DNA from: Thermotogae bacterium
GTDB taxonomy: Bacteria; Thermotogota; Thermotogae; Petrotogales; Petrotogaceae
Reading direction: 5' to 3'
Length of the DNA stretch: 52,190 nucleotides
Assembly (NCBI GenBank): GCA_022704305.1
Contig: JAKJGQ010000004.1
Coordinates: forward strand, 1-52,190
How positions within the stretch are numbered: position 1 is the first letter of the stretch; every line of letters starts with the position of its first letter. The notes below the pieces were generated by a model that was given only the letters and a program-made list of their open reading frames with translations, had not been told where the DNA came from and searched no databases. Below are positions 18,593 to 40,541 of this stretch, in pieces. The position numbers and the translations under genes were made by a program.

Positions 18593-18922
18593 ATGGAAAA
18601 ATCAGTAAGAACAACTCCGACTTTCAAGCTTGACGCATATGCAAAAAAAGATGTGCTTACCAAGCTTAAGCAATTGTGTACGGAACTAAAGCTTGAAGAT
18701 GAAATAACAGATATTTCCATAAGAGCGGGAAGAGTTTATCTGACATTTTCCCAGGAAATAAATACAAGGATAAGCATATATGACGGTTCTCTTGATCATT
18801 GCTCTCTGGAAAGACCTTATTCTAATGCAAAATGGAAATCTGTTTCGGAAGGAAGTATGAAAGCATGTCTAAACTTTATAAAAGAAAAAATTTTACTCTC
18901 AGGTGAAAAAGGTGATTGTTGA
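18593..18922 (+). CDS. Hypothetical protein, small, overlaps aroH
   Basis: 109 aa, no recognised family. Mixed alpha/beta pattern without signal peptide or membrane helix; about five strands are predicted by eye around residues 38-75. GGGGG and a TATAAT (18555-18560) precede the start, so it is probably expressed. Its end overlaps the start of the AroH gene by 11 bases, which indicates translational coupling and perhaps a shared process. Confidence 0.6.
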   Translation: MEKSVRTTPTFKLDAYAKKDVLTKLKQLCTELKLEDEITDISIRAGRVYLTFSQEINTRISIYDGSLDHCSLERPYSNAKWKSVSEGSMKACLNFIKEKILLSGEKGDC

Positions 18923-19253
18923 TATACGCGGAGCTACTTCGGTTGAAACCTTTTCGGAACAGGAGACGGTCGAACGTACAAAAGAACTGATGGAAGAACT
19001 TTTTCTGCGGAATAAAGTAGAACGGATAATAAGCATAACCTTCTCAGTCACGGAAGATATCAATCTTATAAACCCGGCTTCTATTGTACGCAGAGCCTTC
19101 GGACTTGACCATATTTCACTGATGTGTCTTAGAGAAGCTCACTTTGAAGGCTCAATGAATGGCATTATACGTGTAAGCATGTTGTGCGAGTCACAGGACA
19201 GCAATTTTGTATATCTCCATAGAGCCTGTATGCTCCGCCCTGATTTAAAATAA
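18912..19253 (+). CDS. aroH: Monofunctional chorismate mutase, AroH (Bacillus) type
   Basis: 113 aa; converts chorismate to prephenate for Phe and Tyr. The order of motifs fits the trimeric AroH fold: IRGATSVE at the start, ITFSVTEDINLINPA in the middle (B. subtilis has a comparable F-T-V-T-x-D-L-N-x-A-F-P-A segment), LMCLREAHFEGSMNGIIRVSML, and a VYLHRACMLRPDL end. The Arg in IRGAT and the Arg in ACMLRPDL match conserved positions. I choose GTG 18912, with AGGTGA five bases before it; GTG 18903 has no site. No other aromatic-pathway gene is in the window. Confidence 0.87.
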   Translation: MIVDIRGATSVETFSEQETVERTKELMEELFLRNKVERIISITFSVTEDINLINPASIVRRAFGLDHISLMCLREAHFEGSMNGIIRVSMLCESQDSNFVYLHRACMLRPDLK

Positions 19254-20605: not shown

Positions 20606-20634
20606 TTGACTTTAACTACTTTATATGTTATGAT
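20606..20634 (+). promoter_or_regulatory. Sigma-70-like promoter for metQNI leader
   Basis: -35 TTGACT (20606-20611) and -10 TATGAT (20629-20634) with a 17-base spacer. Transcription would begin near 20641 and make a leader of about 208 bases before metQ. Confidence 0.75.
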
Positions 20635-20669
20635 TGGAAAAAAGAAATACGATACCGAGGTGTTAGATA

Positions 20670-20756
20670 ATGAACTGTACTTTAAAAGGAAAACTTCATA
20701 TGTGCATGCCATGGCAACCGACTTTATTTTGCCATGAGTTTTTTTTGCACTCATAA
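20670..20756 (+). CDS. Putative 28-residue leader peptide of metQNI attenuator
   Basis: A complete ORF, ATG at 20670 to TAA at 20754-20756. GAGGTG (20657-20662) sits seven bases upstream, the same type of site that real genes here use. Codons 11-13 read Met-Cys-Met (20700-20708), and Cys also occurs at codons 3 and 21, unusual for a random 28-mer. The peptide has no other recognisable features. The proposed role is to let ribosome movement report on Met (or Cys) tRNA charging. It could be a chance ORF within an unrecognised riboswitch, as there is no homologue to compare with. Confidence 0.5.
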   Translation: MNCTLKGKLHMCMPWQPTLFCHEFFLHS

Positions 20757-20807
20757 ATTGGCAATAATCAAAATCGGTTGCACTCACAGGGTGTAGCCGA
20801 TTTTTTT
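20710..20807 (+). promoter_or_regulatory. Transcription attenuator: competing hairpins and terminator
   Basis: Three mutually exclusive helices. Helix 1: CATGGCA (20710-20716) with TGCCATG (20730-20736), then eight T residues, itself terminator-like. Helix 2: GCAACCGA (20714-20721) with TCGGTTGC (20774-20781), perfect eight pairs. Helix 3: 20772-20785 with 20789-20802, about 12-14 pairs, followed by TTTTTTT, a strong terminator 42 bases before metQ. Helix 2 shares bases with both others. A perfect nine-base repeat TTGCACTCA (20745-20753, 20779-20787) lies at the leader stop and in the terminator arm. Confidence 0.75.
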
Positions 20808-20848
20808 ATTTAAAAAATCATTACTACATAATACTTAGGAGGTGTACC

Positions 20849-21667
20849 ATGTTAAAAAAAAGAAGTCTGTTTGTTGCACTGCTTGTTGCGCTTATTGTTC
20901 TTGCAGTAGTTCTTGTTATAACGCTTAACCCATCAAAAGAAAAAGTATTCAAGATAGGAGCATCTCCTGTTCCTCATAATGAAATTCTGGAACAGGTAAA
21001 GGATGACTTCAGAAAAGAGACCGGATATGAACTCAAAATCATAATCTTTACCGATTATGTACAACCAAATATAGCTTTGGAACAAGAAGATATCGATGCT
21101 AATTTTTTCCAGCACATACCTTATCTTGAATCGTTCAATCTCAAAAACGGTTACACGGATCTCATAAGTGCTGCCAAAATTCATGTTGAACCTATGGGAC
21201 TTTATCTTAAAAAACCACTTAACGAGCTTTCACCATCAGATACCGTCCTTCTCCCAAATGATTCTACAAACGAGGGAAGAGCCTTGATGCTCCTTGAAAA
21301 TAACGGAATTATAACCCTTAGATCCGAAAACAAACTTATTGCAACTGTAAAAGACATCTCAGAGAATAAATACGGAATAAACTTCCTGGAACTAGAGGCT
21401 CCTTTGCTTCCCAGAACCTTTAAAGAAGATAGCAAGATTGCCGGAGCAGTCATAAACACAAATTATGCCATTGAAGCCGGACTAAATCCGATTTCGGACA
21501 GCACCTTCATTGAGGGAAGCGATTCTGCATACGCCAACATAATTGCCGTTAAAAAGAAAAATATTGATTCAAAGCTTTTAAAATCACTCATCTCTCTTTT
21601 ACAGTCTGAAAAAATTAAAAGCTTTATTAATTCAAAATACAACGGAGCCGTAGTTCCGGTCTTTTAG
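20849..21667 (+). CDS. metQ: Methionine ABC transporter, substrate-binding protein (NlpA family), without lipobox
   Basis: 272 aa. MetQ/NlpA binding fold: KIGASPVPHNEILE at the start, GYELKIIIFTDYVQPNIALEQEDIDANFFQHIPYL in the first lobe, and IAGAVINTNYAIEAGLNP in the second, all typical. Captures methionine outside the inner membrane. Most relatives are lipoproteins with a Cys after the signal; here the N-terminal hydrophobic segment (residues 7-26) runs into TLNPSKEK and no lipobox Cys exists, so the protein is probably held by an uncleaved helix or released. GGAGGTG precedes the ATG. Nine bases separate it from metN. Confidence 0.9.
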   Translation: MLKKRSLFVALLVALIVLAVVLVITLNPSKEKVFKIGASPVPHNEILEQVKDDFRKETGYELKIIIFTDYVQPNIALEQEDIDANFFQHIPYLESFNLKNGYTDLISAAKIHVEPMGLYLKKPLNELSPSDTVLLPNDSTNEGRALMLLENNGIITLRSENKLIATVKDISENKYGINFLELEAPLLPRTFKEDSKIAGAVINTNYAIEAGLNPISDSTFIEGSDSAYANIIAVKKKNIDSKLLKSLISLLQSEKIKSFINSKYNGAVVPVF

Positions 21668-21675
21668 GAGAGTTC

Positions 21676-22677
21676 ATGTTAAGACTTGAAGATGTAAACT
21701 TATTCTATCAGAAAAACAATCATGTGCTGAAAAATATCAGCTTTGAAACACAAAAAGAAGAGATACTAGGAATAATAGGACTTTCCGGAGCTGGAAAGTC
21801 CTCTCTGCTCAAAACATTTAATCTTTTACAGAGACCCTCCAGCGGAAAAATTTTTCTTGACAACATTCTGATTACAGATCTCAAAAAAAAAGAGCTCAGG
21901 CAGGTACGAAAACAGATCAGCGTTGTTTTTCAGAACTACAACCTTCTTAATTCCAGAACAGTATTTGAAAATGTAGCCCTGGCTCTTGAACTTGAGCATC
22001 AAAAGTTTATTGAGCCTACGGTACTGAATGTTTTGGAAAAAGTAGGACTTTCGCACAGAAAAGATGCTTACATATCGCAGCTCTCAGGCGGAGAAAAACA
22101 GCGTACCGCTATTGCAAGAGCTGTGGTAACTAATCCGAAAATCCTTCTTTTGGATGAACCCACATCTGCTCTTGATCCTAAAACTACCGAAAAAATACTT
22201 GATCTTGTTCTTTATGTAAATAAGGAGTTGGGAATAACAACCATTGTGGTTACTCATGAGATGGAAGTTATTAAAAGGATCTGTGATAGGGTTCTTTACC
22301 TGAAAGACGGAACCATAAAGTTTCTTGGACAGACTCACAGACTTTTTATAGAAAAAGACAGTCAGATTCTTGAAGATTTTTATGAAGAGATAAATATTGA
22401 TAAAGAGCTTATAAATCAAAAGCTTGAAAAAAAAGAGAGTCATCTGCTACGTATTGTGTTCTGGGGAAGTTCTACCCACTGTCCGGTAATAAGCACGTTA
22501 TCTTTAAAGTACTCTGTCACTTCTAATATCCTTTATGGAAAGATAGAACATCTCAAAAACAACCCCTATGGCACCCTTATACTTGAAATCTCTGAAAATC
22601 CTAACTACTCTGATTTTTTAAATGAGCTGAAAAAAAATGTATACTTCTGCGAAGAGCTTACCGGAGGCGGAAAATGA
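21676..22677 (+). CDS. metN: Methionine ABC transporter, ATP-binding protein with NIL domain
   Basis: 333 aa. Walker A GLSGAGKSS, signature LSGGEKQRTAIARAV, Walker B KILLLDEPTSALDP and His in VVTHEM. Residues about 250-333 form the NIL (ACT-like) domain, which in the E. coli homologue binds methionine and inhibits transport (trans-inhibition), so post-translational control is likely. Its stop overlaps the metI start (ATGA at 22674-22677). Confidence 0.93.
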   Translation: MLRLEDVNLFYQKNNHVLKNISFETQKEEILGIIGLSGAGKSSLLKTFNLLQRPSSGKIFLDNILITDLKKKELRQVRKQISVVFQNYNLLNSRTVFENVALALELEHQKFIEPTVLNVLEKVGLSHRKDAYISQLSGGEKQRTAIARAVVTNPKILLLDEPTSALDPKTTEKILDLVLYVNKELGITTIVVTHEMEVIKRICDRVLYLKDGTIKFLGQTHRLFIEKDSQILEDFYEEINIDKELINQKLEKKESHLLRIVFWGSSTHCPVISTLSLKYSVTSNILYGKIEHLKNNPYGTLILEISENPNYSDFLNELKKNVYFCEELTGGGK

Positions 22678-23312
22678 TTGAAGAACTCTTAAAAGCAACC
22701 ATAGAAACACTTTATATGACCTTTTTCTCCACCCTTATTGCTTTTATGGCCGGACTTCCGCTGGGAATTTTGCTGTATCTGCTTTCAAAAAAGAAAGATC
22801 ATGCCAGTAAGATTATTTATACTTTCTTTGATTTTATTATCAATATTTTCCGTTCCATACCTTTTATAATCCTTATAATACTCCTTATTCCACTGACCAA
22901 GCTTATTGCAGGAACTATTATTGGCGCCAACTCTGCCATAGTTTCTCTTTCCATTGCAGCTATTCCTTTTATGGCAAGGCTCTGTGAGAACTCATTCAAC
23001 AGTCTTTCTCACGAAATGCTTGATACGGCAAGTTCAATGGGTATGACCACATGGCAGCTAATAACCAAAGTGCTCATTCCAGAGAGTTTGCCTGAGATTA
23101 TTTCAAATACCACTATCCTTATAATCAACCTTATAACCTACACAGCCATAGCCGGTGCTGTCGGAGCCGGAGGACTTGGTGCAATGGCCATAAACTACGG
23201 TTATCAGCGCTTCAGAGCGGATATACTTCTGTATACGGTCTCAATACTTGTTATTATCACACAACTGGTTCAGTTTGCAGGAACATTGCTGTCAAAAAGG
23301 CTGCGCAGGTAA
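22674..23312 (+). CDS. metI: Methionine ABC transporter, permease
   Basis: 212 aa, five transmembrane helices. The EAA loop with DTASSMGMTTWQLITKVLIPESLPEI couples to MetN. The AGAVGAGGLGAMAINYGYQRF tail is typical of MetI. It ends the metQNI operon; the start overlaps metN by four bases. Confidence 0.93.
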   Translation: MIEELLKATIETLYMTFFSTLIAFMAGLPLGILLYLLSKKKDHASKIIYTFFDFIINIFRSIPFIILIILLIPLTKLIAGTIIGANSAIVSLSIAAIPFMARLCENSFNSLSHEMLDTASSMGMTTWQLITKVLIPESLPEIISNTTILIINLITYTAIAGAVGAGGLGAMAINYGYQRFRADILLYTVSILVIITQLVQFAGTLLSKRLRR

Positions 23313-23380: not shown

Positions 23381-23429
23381 TAAGTATGGTATGAAATTTA
23401 TTTCAGCATGCAAACAGGAGGTATTTGAG

Positions 23430-24332
23430 ATGTCTTTTGGCAAGATCATTCAGTGTGTTCCCAACTACAGCGAAGGAAAAGACCTTGAAAAAGTAGAGAT
23501 GATCCTTGACTGTTTCAGAGGAAAAGAAGGAGTTAAGCTTCTTGACTACAGCAGCAATAAAGATCACAACAGAACCGTCGTGACCCTTATAGGAGAGCCG
23601 GAACCTTTAATGCAGGCAGTTATTAAATCGGTAGGTGTGGCGGCAGAACTTATAGACCTTTCAAAACATAAGGGAGAACATCCTAGGATGGGAGCAACAG
23701 ACGTCATTCCTTTTATACCTATAAGAAATACAGATATGAAAGAGTGTGTAGATCTTTCAGTGAAAGTTGCAGGTGCCATATCTGAAAAATACGGCATACC
23801 GACCTTTCTTTACGAAAAATCGGCTTCTTCACCACAGAGAGCTAATCTTGCTGATATAAGAAAAGGCGAGTACGAAGGCATGTTTGAAAAAATCAAGCGA
23901 CCGGAATGGAAACCGGACTTTGGTCCGGCAGTAAACCACCCCAAGGCAGGAGCAACCGTAGTTGGTGCAAGAATGCCGCTTGTGGCTTTTAATATTAATC
24001 TTAATACCAACAATCTTGATATAGCAACAAAGATAGCCAAAAATATAAGGTACATAAACGGCGGTCTGCGTTATGTGAAAGCTCTCGGAATAGATCTTAA
24101 GGAAAGAAATATTGTGCAGATCTCCATAAATATGACAGACTATACCAAAACATCCCTTTACAGGGCATATGAACTTGTAAAAATAGAAGCTCAACGTTAC
24201 GGTGTGGTTCCTGTAGGAAGTGAGATCGTAGGACTCGTGCCTATGCAGGCTCTCATCGATACAGCGGAGTACTATCTGGGACTTGAGGATTTTTCAAATA
24301 ATCAGATCCTCGAAACACGAATCTGGGAGTAG
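23430..24332 (+). CDS. ftcD: Glutamate formiminotransferase
   Basis: 300 aa, the formiminotransferase domain alone. Transfers the formimino group of N-formimino-glutamate to tetrahydrofolate. IQCVPNYSEG at the start and the KHKGEHPRMGATDVIPFIP block are diagnostic; the catalytic His is in that block. ATG 23430 is preferred over an upstream in-frame start (23391) because CAGGAGG lies nine bases before it. In mammals this domain is fused to the cyclodeaminase; here that partner is two genes downstream. The gene order ftcD-hutI-cyclodeaminase is a histidine utilisation operon without hutH or hutU in view. Confidence 0.95.
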   Translation: MSFGKIIQCVPNYSEGKDLEKVEMILDCFRGKEGVKLLDYSSNKDHNRTVVTLIGEPEPLMQAVIKSVGVAAELIDLSKHKGEHPRMGATDVIPFIPIRNTDMKECVDLSVKVAGAISEKYGIPTFLYEKSASSPQRANLADIRKGEYEGMFEKIKRPEWKPDFGPAVNHPKAGATVVGARMPLVAFNINLNTNNLDIATKIAKNIRYINGGLRYVKALGIDLKERNIVQISINMTDYTKTSLYRAYELVKIEAQRYGVVPVGSEIVGLVPMQALIDTAEYYLGLEDFSNNQILETRIWE

Positions 24333-24340
24333 GTGGTACT

Positions 24341-25594
24341 ATCAATTTCCGTGAAAGCCTCCTCATAAAAAACGCTTCTGAGATACTTACCTGTTCAGGC
24401 TTTTCAGCCAAAAAAGGCGTACAGATGAGAGATATAGGCAGGATCGAAGGAGCAGATATTCTTATAAAAAACGGCAAAATATCTTTTATAGGGAAAGTTG
24501 AAACAGATCAGCTTGATACGCAGATAAAAGTTATTGATGCTCACGGCTGCTCTGTGCTTCCGGGCTTTGTTGACTCACACACACACTTTATATTCGGCGG
24601 ATACAGACAGGATGAGTTTATGGACCGTCTGCAGGGAGTACCGTACATGGAGATTATGCAAAGAGGCGGAGGTATCATAAACTCTGTAAAAGCCACGCGT
24701 AAAGCAACACATGAAGAGCTGGCCTCCACCGGAAAAAAGAGACTGGCCTCAATGCTTTCCTTCGGAGTAACTACCGTTGAGGGAAAAAGCGGATATGGTC
24801 TTGATCTGGAAACAGAGTTGAAACAGCTGCGTGTAATGAAAGAACTAAACACTGCCCAGCCTGTCGACATAGTTAGTACTTATATGGGTGCACATGCAGT
24901 TGCACCTGAGTATGAAAAGGATCCGGACAGATATATAGACTTTATCATATCCGACGTTCTGCCCAAAGTAAAAGAAGATAAACTGGCAGAGTTCTGTGAT
25001 GTTTTCTGTGAAAAAAATGTCTTCAGCATAGAACAGTCAGAAAAACTTCTCAACAGCGCAAAAAAACTTGGAATGGGAATCAAAGCACATGCAGACGAAA
25101 TAGTCCCCTTTGGCGGAGCAGCAATGGCTGCAAGAGTCGGAGCAACCTCTGCAGATCATCTTCTTAAAGCAAGTTTGCAGGATATAACTCTTATGTCTCA
25201 AAACAATGTAGTGGCAACACTGCTTCCCCTTACTGCCTTCAGTCTTAATGAAGAGTATGCGGATGCAAGACTTATGATTGAAAGAGACTGTGCGGTTGCT
25301 CTTGCAACAGATATGAATCCCGGCTCCTGTTTCAGCGAGTCTATACCGTTGCTTATCTCTTTGGCTGCCATACATATGAAGATGTCCATAGAAGAGATTA
25401 TCATTGCCCTTACCATAAACGGCGCTGCTGCTGTGGGACGCGAGAAAAACATCGGCTCTATTGATATAGGCAAAGAAGGAGATATTCTTATTCTTGATTC
25501 TCCTTCATATAAGTTCCTTGCTTACCATATAGGCGTAAGCTCTGTTCAGACAGTTATAAAAAACGGAAAAGTAGTTTTTTCAAAAGGAGGATAA
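24341..25594 (+). CDS. hutI: Imidazolonepropionase, probable non-AUG start
   Basis: Amidohydrolase that opens imidazolone propionate to formimino-glutamate. Metal ligands: HTH in VDSHTHFIFGG, His in IKAHADEI, and Asp in LATDMNPGS. The first ATG in frame is 24425, but the 28 codons before it encode SLLIKNASEILTC...VQM, which aligns with the N-terminus of B. subtilis HutI (similar ILIN-x-G-x-L-L-T segment). No ATG, GTG or TTG exists in that stretch. The best start is ATC at 24341, after GGTGG (24332-24337); a CTG at 24323 is a weaker option. From ATC the protein has 417 residues. The reading frame is otherwise intact. Confidence 0.9.
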   Translation: MNFRESLLIKNASEILTCSGFSAKKGVQMRDIGRIEGADILIKNGKISFIGKVETDQLDTQIKVIDAHGCSVLPGFVDSHTHFIFGGYRQDEFMDRLQGVPYMEIMQRGGGIINSVKATRKATHEELASTGKKRLASMLSFGVTTVEGKSGYGLDLETELKQLRVMKELNTAQPVDIVSTYMGAHAVAPEYEKDPDRYIDFIISDVLPKVKEDKLAEFCDVFCEKNVFSIEQSEKLLNSAKKLGMGIKAHADEIVPFGGAAMAARVGATSADHLLKASLQDITLMSQNNVVATLLPLTAFSLNEEYADARLMIERDCAVALATDMNPGSCFSESIPLLISLAAIHMKMSIEEIIIALTINGAAAVGREKNIGSIDIGKEGDILILDSPSYKFLAYHIGVSSVQTVIKNGKVVFSKGG

Positions 25595-25595
25595 A

Positions 25596-26213
25596 ATGCT
25601 TATTGATAAAAAAGTTTCTGAGTTTATTGATGAAGTTGCTTCAGACTCTTCCGTTCCAGGAGGAGGAAGTGTCGCTGCACTTAGCGGAGCCATCAGCGCT
25701 GCTCTCGTTTCAATGGTTTCCAACCTCACTATAGGAAAAAAAGGCTATGAAGATAAAGAAGAACATGTGAAAGGAATTCTGGTTAAGTCCGAAAAAATAC
25801 GTCAAGAGCTAACCTTACTTATAGACGAGGACAGCAAGGCCTTTGAAAAGGTCATGAAAGCCTTTAAGCTTCCAAAAGACACCCAAGAACAGAAAGAATT
25901 AAGAACCAGCACAATTCAGCAGGAAACCAAAAATGCATCACTTATACCGCTTAAAGCAGCCAAAAGTGCAGCTGAAATATTTGAGCTTGCAAGATATGTC
26001 CTGCTGAACGGAAATAAAAATGCAGCTTCCGATGCCGCGGTATCTGTCATGCTTGCGCGGACAGCGGTTCTGTCAGCCTGCTATAATGTGCTTATAAATC
26101 TTTCCTCCATAAAAGATCAGGAGTTTGTTCAAAATATAAAACAGGAAGTTGTACAGCTTCAAAAAAATGCTTTGGAGACTGAAACGGAGATACTTTCATT
26201 ATATACTTTCTGA
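25596..26213 (+). CDS. fchA: Formiminotetrahydrofolate cyclodeaminase-like protein
   Basis: 205 aa, mostly helical. The SVPGGGSVAALSGAISAALVSMVSNLTIGKKGY block is the cyclodeaminase/cyclohydrolase folate-binding signature, with LIDEDSKAFEKVMKAFKLPK after it. Releases ammonia from 5-formimino-THF to give methenyl-THF and thus completes the pathway begun by FtcD. It starts one base after the hutI stop, with GGAGG in the end of hutI. The symbol follows clostridial use; a methenyl-THF cyclohydrolase role cannot be excluded. Confidence 0.9.
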   Translation: MLIDKKVSEFIDEVASDSSVPGGGSVAALSGAISAALVSMVSNLTIGKKGYEDKEEHVKGILVKSEKIRQELTLLIDEDSKAFEKVMKAFKLPKDTQEQKELRTSTIQQETKNASLIPLKAAKSAAEIFELARYVLLNGNKNAASDAAVSVMLARTAVLSACYNVLINLSSIKDQEFVQNIKQEVVQLQKNALETETEILSLYTF

Positions 26214-38553: not shown

Positions 38554-40176
38554 TTATGCTTTCTGCTTATCCTCTATACTGTCGTCTTTTTGAGAAGCTT
38601 TCTTACTCAGTACCCTCACCAGGATATAAAGTACTGGCACACAGAATAAAAGATTTAACGTTCCGCTGACCCCAAGACCATATCTGGCCGTAAAACCCAT
38701 TATTATATAGCCCACAAAGCATACTCCGGCAACCAAAGTAGCATAAGGCATCTGGGTATTTACATGGTCAAGATGGTTACATCCGGCACCTGTCGAACTC
38801 ATAATAGTTGTATCTGAAATCGGTGAAACGTGATCTCCATAAACTGCTCCGCCAAGAACTGCCGAAATCATAGCCATAAGCAGATCTGTCCGTCCTGTCG
38901 AAACAACCATAGGTATGGCCATCGGAATAAGAATAGCAAAAGTTCCCCAGGAAGTTCCGGTTGAGTATGCAACCAGACAGGCTATAAGAAAAAGAATTGC
39001 CGGCATGAGCTCTATAGGGAAGTTCTGCGCAGCAAGGGTTCCTATAAACTGCCCTGTCTGAAGATCATTCTTAATTATGGAGCCTATTCCCCAGGCAAGA
39101 ATGAGTATGCAGTTAGCCGGAAGCATAAGCCTGAATCCTGCCCAGAAAAGCTTGGGATACTCGCCCAATGGAATCAGTTTTCTTGCAGCAAAGTACACTA
39201 CCGCAAAGATAACCGATATAAGACCGCTGTAGAACAAAGCCTTGGCAGAGTTCATATTCTGAAAAGCATCAAACATGCTGTTTTCACCGCCTAAAAGCTT
39301 ATAACCGCCTGTGTACAGCATAAAACCTATGAGCATAACTATAAGAAAGAGTATAGGAATTAAAAGATCTATTACCTTACCGTTTTTTGAAGGTGTAATT
39401 TCCTTATCTACTATTTTGCTGACCTCTTTTCCTCCGTTATAGAGATCGCCGAATTTTTTTGCCCTTATCTCATGTTCTCTCATCACTCCGAAATCATAAC
39501 TCTTAAATGCCATAAGAACTACCATAAACATTGTCAGAAGAGCATATGAGTTAAAGACAACCGATGTAAGGAAAACATTGTACGGATTGAATGCGGCAAG
39601 CGTATCCTTTCCCACACCCGACTGGGTAAGCTGGGATATAACGTTTGCAACCCAACTTGATACAGGAGCTATTATGCAGACTGGTGCTGCGGTAGAATCG
39701 ATTATATATGCAAGCTTGGCACGCGATATCCTGTGCTTGTCCGTAAGAGGCTTCATGACTGTGCCTACTGTAAGACAGTTAAAGTAATCATCCAGAAAGA
39801 TTAGAACTCCCAGTATAAATGTTGCAAAACTAGCTCCTTCACGGGTTTTTATCTTTTTTATAACCCAATTTCCGTAAGCAAGCGCTCCGCCAGCCCTGTT
39901 GACAAGTGCCACCAGTATTCCAAGAAAAATAAGGAAGAACAGAATGAAAAGATTCCAGCTGTTGTTGAAATTTTCCCACGAAGAAAAATTTTTCAGCTCA
40001 AGATTATCCCAGAAAATGGTTACAATCTTCCCTATTGCTGAAATGATATCCCCGTGGGTAAAGATAAGCGCCCCCACTGCTATACCGGCAAAAAGTGAGA
40101 TATATACCTTTTTGGTTATAAGAGCAAGCCCTATAGCTAAAACCGGTGGAATCAGCGACCAATATCCAAACTCCAT
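38554..40176 (-). CDS. NhaC-family antiporter, probable lysine transporter
   Basis: 540 aa with about twelve membrane helices. The LDDYFNCLTVGTVMKPLTDKHRISRAKLAYIIDSTAAPVCIIAPVSSW block is the NhaC-family core, and SPISDTTIMSSTGAGCNHLDHVNTQMPYA the second conserved half. GGGAGGTG at 40181-40188 precedes the ATG. The lysine riboswitch in its leader strongly suggests that lysine is the substrate (the LysW group of NhaC proteins), rather than plain Na+/H+ exchange. Expression should rise when lysine is scarce. Confidence 0.88.
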   Translation of the reverse strand: MEFGYWSLIPPVLAIGLALITKKVYISLFAGIAVGALIFTHGDIISAIGKIVTIFWDNLELKNFSSWENFNNSWNLFILFFLIFLGILVALVNRAGGALAYGNWVIKKIKTREGASFATFILGVLIFLDDYFNCLTVGTVMKPLTDKHRISRAKLAYIIDSTAAPVCIIAPVSSWVANVISQLTQSGVGKDTLAAFNPYNVFLTSVVFNSYALLTMFMVVLMAFKSYDFGVMREHEIRAKKFGDLYNGGKEVSKIVDKEITPSKNGKVIDLLIPILFLIVMLIGFMLYTGGYKLLGGENSMFDAFQNMNSAKALFYSGLISVIFAVVYFAARKLIPLGEYPKLFWAGFRLMLPANCILILAWGIGSIIKNDLQTGQFIGTLAAQNFPIELMPAILFLIACLVAYSTGTSWGTFAILIPMAIPMVVSTGRTDLLMAMISAVLGGAVYGDHVSPISDTTIMSSTGAGCNHLDHVNTQMPYATLVAGVCFVGYIIMGFTARYGLGVSGTLNLLFCVPVLYILVRVLSKKASQKDDSIEDKQKA

Positions 40177-40256: not shown

Positions 40257-40302
40257 AGAGATTTCTGTGAGTGATTTGATAGATTTACTATAAAATCATC
40301 CA

Positions 40303-40460
40303 TTTGACGGCTCTCCACTATAAGTGACAGTTATACGGGTATTTCCCGCATACCCAGAAGTATAAAAAGAGTCTTTTTTATACCCTTCGGCGGCCTTGCC
40401 TTTCCCCAGCATATTAAGACTCGTTTGTGTGCAGGGTACTATTCTGTGCCGCTCCTCCGT
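40303..40460 (-). promoter_or_regulatory. Lysine riboswitch (L-box) aptamer
   Basis: On the minus strand the order of conserved blocks is that of the L-box: GGAGGAGCGGC, AGTA, GGGGAAAGGCAAGGCCGCCG, CTTCTGGGTATGCGGGAAATA, ACTGTCAC and AGTGGAGAGCCGTC. The outer stem can form between ACGG (40460-40457) and CCGT (40310-40307). Reported from motif recognition. Confidence 0.9.
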
Positions 40461-40541
40461 AATTAATTATTAACTTTGTTATATTATTTTAACTTAAAAC
40501 TATTGCTTCTTAATTAAAAAGTAATTACAAAAACCACATTT

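Follow-up and report, generated by a model that had tools for sequence, protein, structure and literature searches.

A putative methionine-sensing attenuator before metQNI operons of Thermotogota

The metQNI locus and its leader

The metQNI operon of a Thermotogota genome (80% complete) raises the question of how methionine uptake is controlled where no known riboswitch precedes the transporter genes. We analysed a window of 52,190 nucleotides from this genome (contig JAKJGQ010000004.1), to which all coordinates below refer, on the forward strand unless stated otherwise. An original prediction made from the DNA letters held that the stretch before metQ is a ribosome-mediated attenuator and proposed a search of Rfam for a known riboswitch; this search found neither riboswitch nor T-box in the window leader, and no riboswitch in the relatives' scanned leaders. 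The covariance models for SAM-I (RF00162) and the T-box (RF00230) likewise had no match in the window. Since the orthologous metQ lies under a SAM-I riboswitch in nine other genomes, as does metQ of Megasphaera and Colibacter, methionine control of the operon is to be expected.

The operon consists of metQ (20849-21667), coding for a methionine-binding lipoprotein of the NlpA/MetQ family (PF03180, 266 bits), metN (21676-22677), an ATPase with a C-terminal NIL domain (PF00005, PF09383), and the permease gene metI (22674-23312; PF00528). Matches to subfamily models stay under the cut-offs of these models: metQ reaches 1e-52 with the MetQ model NF008285, the best NCBIfam match of metN is TIGR02314 MetN and that of metI is NF008049 MetI (194.6 bits against a cut-off of 212). 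A divergent gene for an MscS-like channel lies upstream of the leader. Downstream, ftcD, hutI and an fchA-like gene (23391-26213) start 79 nt after metI; we looked for a terminator between metI and these genes and found none, and their co-transcription with metQNI, which would link methionine uptake with histidine degradation, is possible. Among the relatives' fetched loci, which are short, hut genes after metI were found only in that of a congener (L049). Elsewhere the window contains a lysine riboswitch (RF00168, 90.9 bits; 40300-40467, reverse strand) with a gene of the Na+/H+ antiporter family 3' of it (38554-40176; PF03553) that is probably a lysine-related transporter, and a gene for an AroH-type chorismate mutase (PF07736; GTG start, 18903-19253) that overlaps the end of a 109-aa ORF (18593-18922) with no Pfam or NCBIfam match.

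As expected of an attenuator, a short ORF with a ribosome-binding site is set between a promoter and a terminator. The sigma-70-type promoter, TTGACT-17-TATGAT with a TG before the -10 box (20606-20634), is plausible but not a significant match, about five such matches being expected by chance in the 800-nt region around it; the leader RNA is expected to start near 20641. By eye, promoter-like sequences are similarly placed in relatives, e.g. TTGACA ... ATGTTAGAAT in L012 and L013. The leader ORF (20670-20756) has 28 codons (MNCTLKGKLHMCMPWQPTLFCHEFFLHS) and a TAA stop and is preceded by the Shine-Dalgarno site GAGGTG (20657-20662). Its presumed control codons ATG-TGC-ATG (20700-20708) specify Met11-Cys-Met13, with methionine codons at 20700-20702 and 20706-20708 and the cysteine codon between them. 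Promoter, ORF with its strong ribosome-binding site, and the two methionine codons around a cysteine had all been named in the original prediction and are present. There are only two methionine codons in this leader, not three, a number within chance for 28 codons (P ~0.05-0.15 against a methionine background of 2.5%), and a DNA search of its own genome brought up no further copy of the leader.

Folding of the leader revealed competing structures. Helix 1, the candidate pre-emptor (anti-antiterminator; 20710-20736), pairs CATGGCAA (20710-20717) with TTGCCATG (20729-20736). The antiterminator (20714-20781) pairs GCAACCGA (20714-20721) with TCGGTTGC (20774-20781) and extends inward through 20723-20725 with 20770-20772, 20726-20728 with 20766-20768, 20729-20734 with 20759-20764 and 20735-20739 with 20749-20753, giving one composite hairpin of -24.2 kcal/mol (shuffle p = 0.002). 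The intrinsic terminator (20770-20811, -21.1 kcal/mol) has a stem of 20770-20785 with 20789-20804 followed by a U tract (T7), and one terminator-like site was found against 0.2 expected in shuffles. Taken as a whole, the region 20640-20812 has a folding energy of -43.7 kcal/mol, where shuffles reach -31.7 +/- 3.4 (z = -3.6). Three competing helices and a strong terminator, as originally predicted, are present; the predicted pairing of 20714-20721 with 20774-20781 is complementary and was recovered, while helix 1 was refined to the boundaries given above and the antiterminator to a composite hairpin. A nine-base repeat, TTGCACTCA at 20745-20753 and 20778-20786, is present as well; the repeat was not seen in the leaders of L019 or other relatives, and we dropped a regulatory role for it, as it looks incidental.

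Taken alone the window is weak evidence, because two methionine codons in 28 are unremarkable and because the only same-genus genome compared, a Petrotoga-like MAG (CALMRR010000032.1), is identical to it over the 231 nt before metQ. We therefore turn to other genera.

Methionine leaders in other genera

A MetQ search of 103 Thermotogota genomes gave 30 with a homologue at E <= 1e-40. In 19 of these a leader precedes metQ, covering seven genera (g1, g5, g7, g11, g12, g13 and g17; one g7 genome is Marinitoga lauensis) in families f1, f2 and f6, and 23 loci when the additional metQ present in some g11 genomes is counted. In these leaders an ORF of 20-35 codons, preceded by a Shine-Dalgarno site, encodes a methionine cluster; downstream come helices that compete with each other and a terminator ending in a U tract. 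Nine of the 30 genomes (g3, g4, g8) have instead a SAM-I riboswitch before metQ (91-98 bits), and in two (G006, G031) the contig ends too early to classify the upstream region. None of the 30 has leader and SAM-I together before one metQ, and every readable metQ upstream region of the Thermotogota set without SAM-I has a methionine leader. Anywhere in the 19 leader genomes SAM-I was found only in G001, before aspartokinase, and none was found in the window's own, 80% complete genome. A search of 42 genomes with the pattern ATGATGATG...TTTTTT returned most metQ leaders as well as an aspartokinase leader in G039, the rest being coding-like by eye; the looser ATGATG...YTTTTT returned mostly noise in 65 genomes. 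Tandem repeats of ~90 nt with GGCGGCAGCCCTAACAA lie between the SAM-I riboswitch and metQ in L018 and L024 (g4).

The methionine cluster is MMM or MMMM at most loci, MNMIM in g17 and M-C-M in the window, whose control codons align with ATGATGATG in L019. Codons for the operon's own amino acid, two in the window and two to four in relatives, are clustered at the pre-emptor helix. In g11 the N-termini vary between species and MMMY(G/S)NALVS is constant; a second metQ in g11 genomes is preceded by a leader of its own, which encodes M-V-M-C and whose stems differ (L090, L091, L092, L035), giving two separate methionine leaders in one genome. Pooled over nine leaders, methionine makes up 29 of 249 residues (P = 1e-11 against 2.5%), a figure that is descriptive only, as methionine clusters served to find the leaders.

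The antiterminator arms differ between genera: GCAACCGA in g1, GUAACCG in g5, CGGUCUUCUC in g7, ACGCCCU in g11 and ACCCCGU before the second metQ of g11. All of them pair with the terminator 5' arm of their own leader. Duplexes of own arms average -16.4 kcal/mol and those of swapped arms -10.0, and the own-arm pairing sum was matched by none of 100,000 permutations (p = 1e-5). Direct alignment of the window with L019 (ATGTGCATGCCATGGCAACCGA against ATGATGATGCCATGGTGTAACCGA) shows a U-A to C-G change within the antiterminator helix. Antiterminator and terminator are mutually exclusive with compensating changes, and across genera they stay in register with the methionine codons while the stems differ. 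The original prediction had proposed such an alignment and named conservation of the RNA without the ORF as evidence against it; in the relatives the leader ORF, the methionine codons and the mutually exclusive pairings are all kept while the sequences change completely.

An eighth genus, g15, has a methionine leader at another target. In G039 an MMM leader with a terminator (MKNQANAFQRKGYMMMRHTPPKLGGRV) precedes aspartokinase and an asd-like gene, and in its congener G051 MKKNTSSLLRKGYMMMRLTPPKLGGRR lies before aspartokinase. The residues before KGYMMMR differ between these two genomes; what they share is the methionine run and the RNA that follows. By eye, no such leader was seen upstream of other aspartokinases outside g15, and in many of them lysC closely follows a dapD-like gene. 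G001, a congener of the window genome, has its SAM-I riboswitch before aspartokinase (L101, 618-719 and 795-2033), and SAM sensing for synthesis seems to be combined in this genus with Met-tRNA sensing for uptake.

The same comparison bears on how methionine would be sensed. An unknown riboswitch or a protein-binding leader could sense methionine or SAM directly, with the ORF incidental, as the strong alternative structures and the SAM-I riboswitches holding the same position in Petrotoga-like relatives might suggest. We consider this very unlikely: there is no Rfam match in the leaders scanned, the conserved sequence core that an aptamer would need is missing between genera, and the common features are a Shine-Dalgarno-led ORF, methionine codons and their spacing to the antiterminator. 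It is also most unlikely that the switch is an arrest of the ribosome by the nascent leader peptide, possibly aided by a small molecule. Within g11 and within g7 the peptides do have a conserved C-terminal part, but the conserved stretches overlap with RNA helices, no peptide sequence except methionine is common between genera, and the N-termini, expected to lie along the exit tunnel, vary within g11 and g15.

Ribosome position and the proposed switch

A ribosome-based switch requires that the position of the ribosome decides which helix can form. In folding the leaders we masked, as covered by the ribosome, the 14 nt that start with the cluster's first methionine codon (Met1) and placed the polymerase at the terminator loop; the limits of the footprint may be off by a few bases. 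If Met11 occupies the A site, the window's antiterminator starts at 20714, exactly at the mask edge, with -24.2 kcal/mol. Moving Met13 into the A site abolishes it (-10.6), and a mask at the stop codon yields helix 1 and the terminator. When Met1 is in the A site, all representatives fold into a single long antiterminator, which starts at +14 to +16 from Met1 in most and at +19 to +21 in L012 and L011. In each of nine representatives the antiterminator region is more stable than its dinucleotide shuffles (p 0.002-0.01, Fisher p = 1e-14). Counting the sequestered terminator-arm bases against shuffles gave no discrimination (Fisher p = 0.71), an uninformative measure because random upstream RNA pairs with the terminator arm too, whereas the energy and cross-pairing tests did discriminate. 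In masked folds, and in these only, a ribosome at the control codons frees the antiterminator arm and a ribosome at the stop codon does not. The original prediction had reasoned that a wait at Met11 leaves 20714 onward free to break the terminator, and that a ribosome at the stop lets helix 1 and then the terminator form; the masked folds reproduce both geometries, and the former recurs across genera.

At equilibrium the full-length RNA favours the terminator even with a stalled ribosome, so that antitermination would have to be kinetic, as in known attenuators. Folded up to the terminator loop with no ribosome, the RNA prefers the antiterminator; the OFF state would thus need helix 1 to form first, or a ribosome at the stop.

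Taken together, comparison and modelling support the attenuator interpretation, and the leader very probably acts as an attenuator of transcription in which a translating ribosome gauges the supply of charged methionyl-tRNA, with the switch ON at low methionine. When methionine is ample, the leading ribosome would pass codons 11-13 and reach the stop; helix 1 would then form and hold 20714-20717 back from its antiterminator role, and the terminator (20770-20804) would halt RNA polymerase upstream of metQNI (OFF). Under methionine shortage, a ribosome translating the leader would wait with Met11 in the A site; its footprint would extend to about 20713, over the first bases of helix 1, and leave 20714 onward free for pairing. 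The composite antiterminator would form once 20774-20781 is transcribed, before the terminator 3' arm exists, and polymerase would read through (ON). A ribosome held at Met13 would instead cover the antiterminator arm, leaving the switch OFF. Lack of methionine restricts initiation with fMet as well, which could weaken the response.

Other codons of the leader deserve the same scrutiny. In the window's genus the amino acid sensed might be histidine (codons 10, 22 and 27) or cysteine (codon 12), given that His10 in the A site yields the same antiterminator fold as Met11, that the hut genes lie 79 nt downstream of metI and that a cysteine follows the methionine cluster in several genera. We find this exceedingly improbable, as methionine is common to all genera but histidine and cysteine are not, the orthologous operon is elsewhere under a SAM-I riboswitch, the transporter has a NIL domain, and turning on histidine breakdown at low histidine makes no sense. 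The chance that there is no regulation, a fortuitous ORF being followed by a plain terminator that shields metQNI from transcripts entering from upstream, is practically negligible: the window's two methionine codons are within chance, but the arrangement recurs in eight genera with stems diverged and pairing preserved.

Relation to known leaders and methionine sensors

Methionine attenuation would extend a familiar type of control. Attenuators of the classical type have been established for only a few amino acids; Rfam holds those for His, Leu, Thr and Trp, Ile/Val and Phe attenuators have also been characterised, and Met is absent (PMC3766115). Outside Proteobacteria and Actinobacteria, His leader peptides are described in Firmicutes (PMC2965389). 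The trp, his, leu, thr, ilv and phe leaders of Proteobacteria likewise have an ORF with control codons, a pre-emptor, an antiterminator and a U-tract terminator, and are ON at amino acid shortage, the direction proposed here. The Thermotogota leaders differ in the methionine control codon, in the uptake operon as target (aspartokinase in g15) and in the phylum.

The original prediction called a methionine attenuator for such genes not described, which was too strong. In C. jejuni, MetL (20 aa, three Met codons) before metBA, with a short RNA ending behind its stop, was proposed as a leader peptide with termination control (PMC3847290); a translation-start signal for MetL and a further candidate, CJsORF19 (MMYQMR) upstream of the metQ-like Cj0772c, are given in PMC11955535. 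Like the Thermotogota leaders these are Met-codon peptides before methionine genes, but their phylum and peptides are different, and the accessible parts of these papers place MetL in C. jejuni, C. coli and C. doylei only and describe neither antiterminator conservation nor a methionine test. In S. lividans TK24 a methionine leader peptide, metL, was proposed before metNIQ, the same kind of transporter operon (PMC8079986). Unlike the leaders here it is leaderless, has no typical Rho-independent terminator and is rich also in Thr, Cys and Arg; the accessible text covers one species and describes no methionine test. As far as the accessible literature goes, we found only such single-species or single-genus candidates. 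By sequence comparison the Thermotogota leaders appear to have the strongest comparative support found for methionine attenuation, through a switch of the classic tryptophan-operon kind, and if the reading is true they would be the first methionine attenuator family backed by conservation across genera.

Two RNA sensors invite comparison. Methionine-specific T-boxes, for example the initiator-tRNA T-box of S. aureus (PMC3771891), also read tRNA-Met charging, but by binding the tRNA directly, and the window has no T-box match. The SAM-I riboswitch (S-box) before metQ of Petrotoga-like genomes occupies the same position at the same orthologous operon, with control expected at the level of transcription; it is a different RNA that senses SAM and not Met-tRNA, and it was not found at metQ of leader genomes. 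The candidate attenuators stand at metQ where close relatives have SAM-I, and the g15 aspartokinase leader has its counterpart in the SAM-I riboswitch of the window's genus. We lean towards the view that much of Thermotogota replaced SAM by Met-tRNA sensing at metQ, and in one genus at aspartokinase, with a sensor that would work despite the limitation of fMet. Whether a ribosome-based sensor can serve the amino acid that every translation start needs becomes testable here, as the leaders of eight genera beside SAM-I relatives offer a natural comparison of a Met-tRNA sensor with a SAM sensor on one operon.
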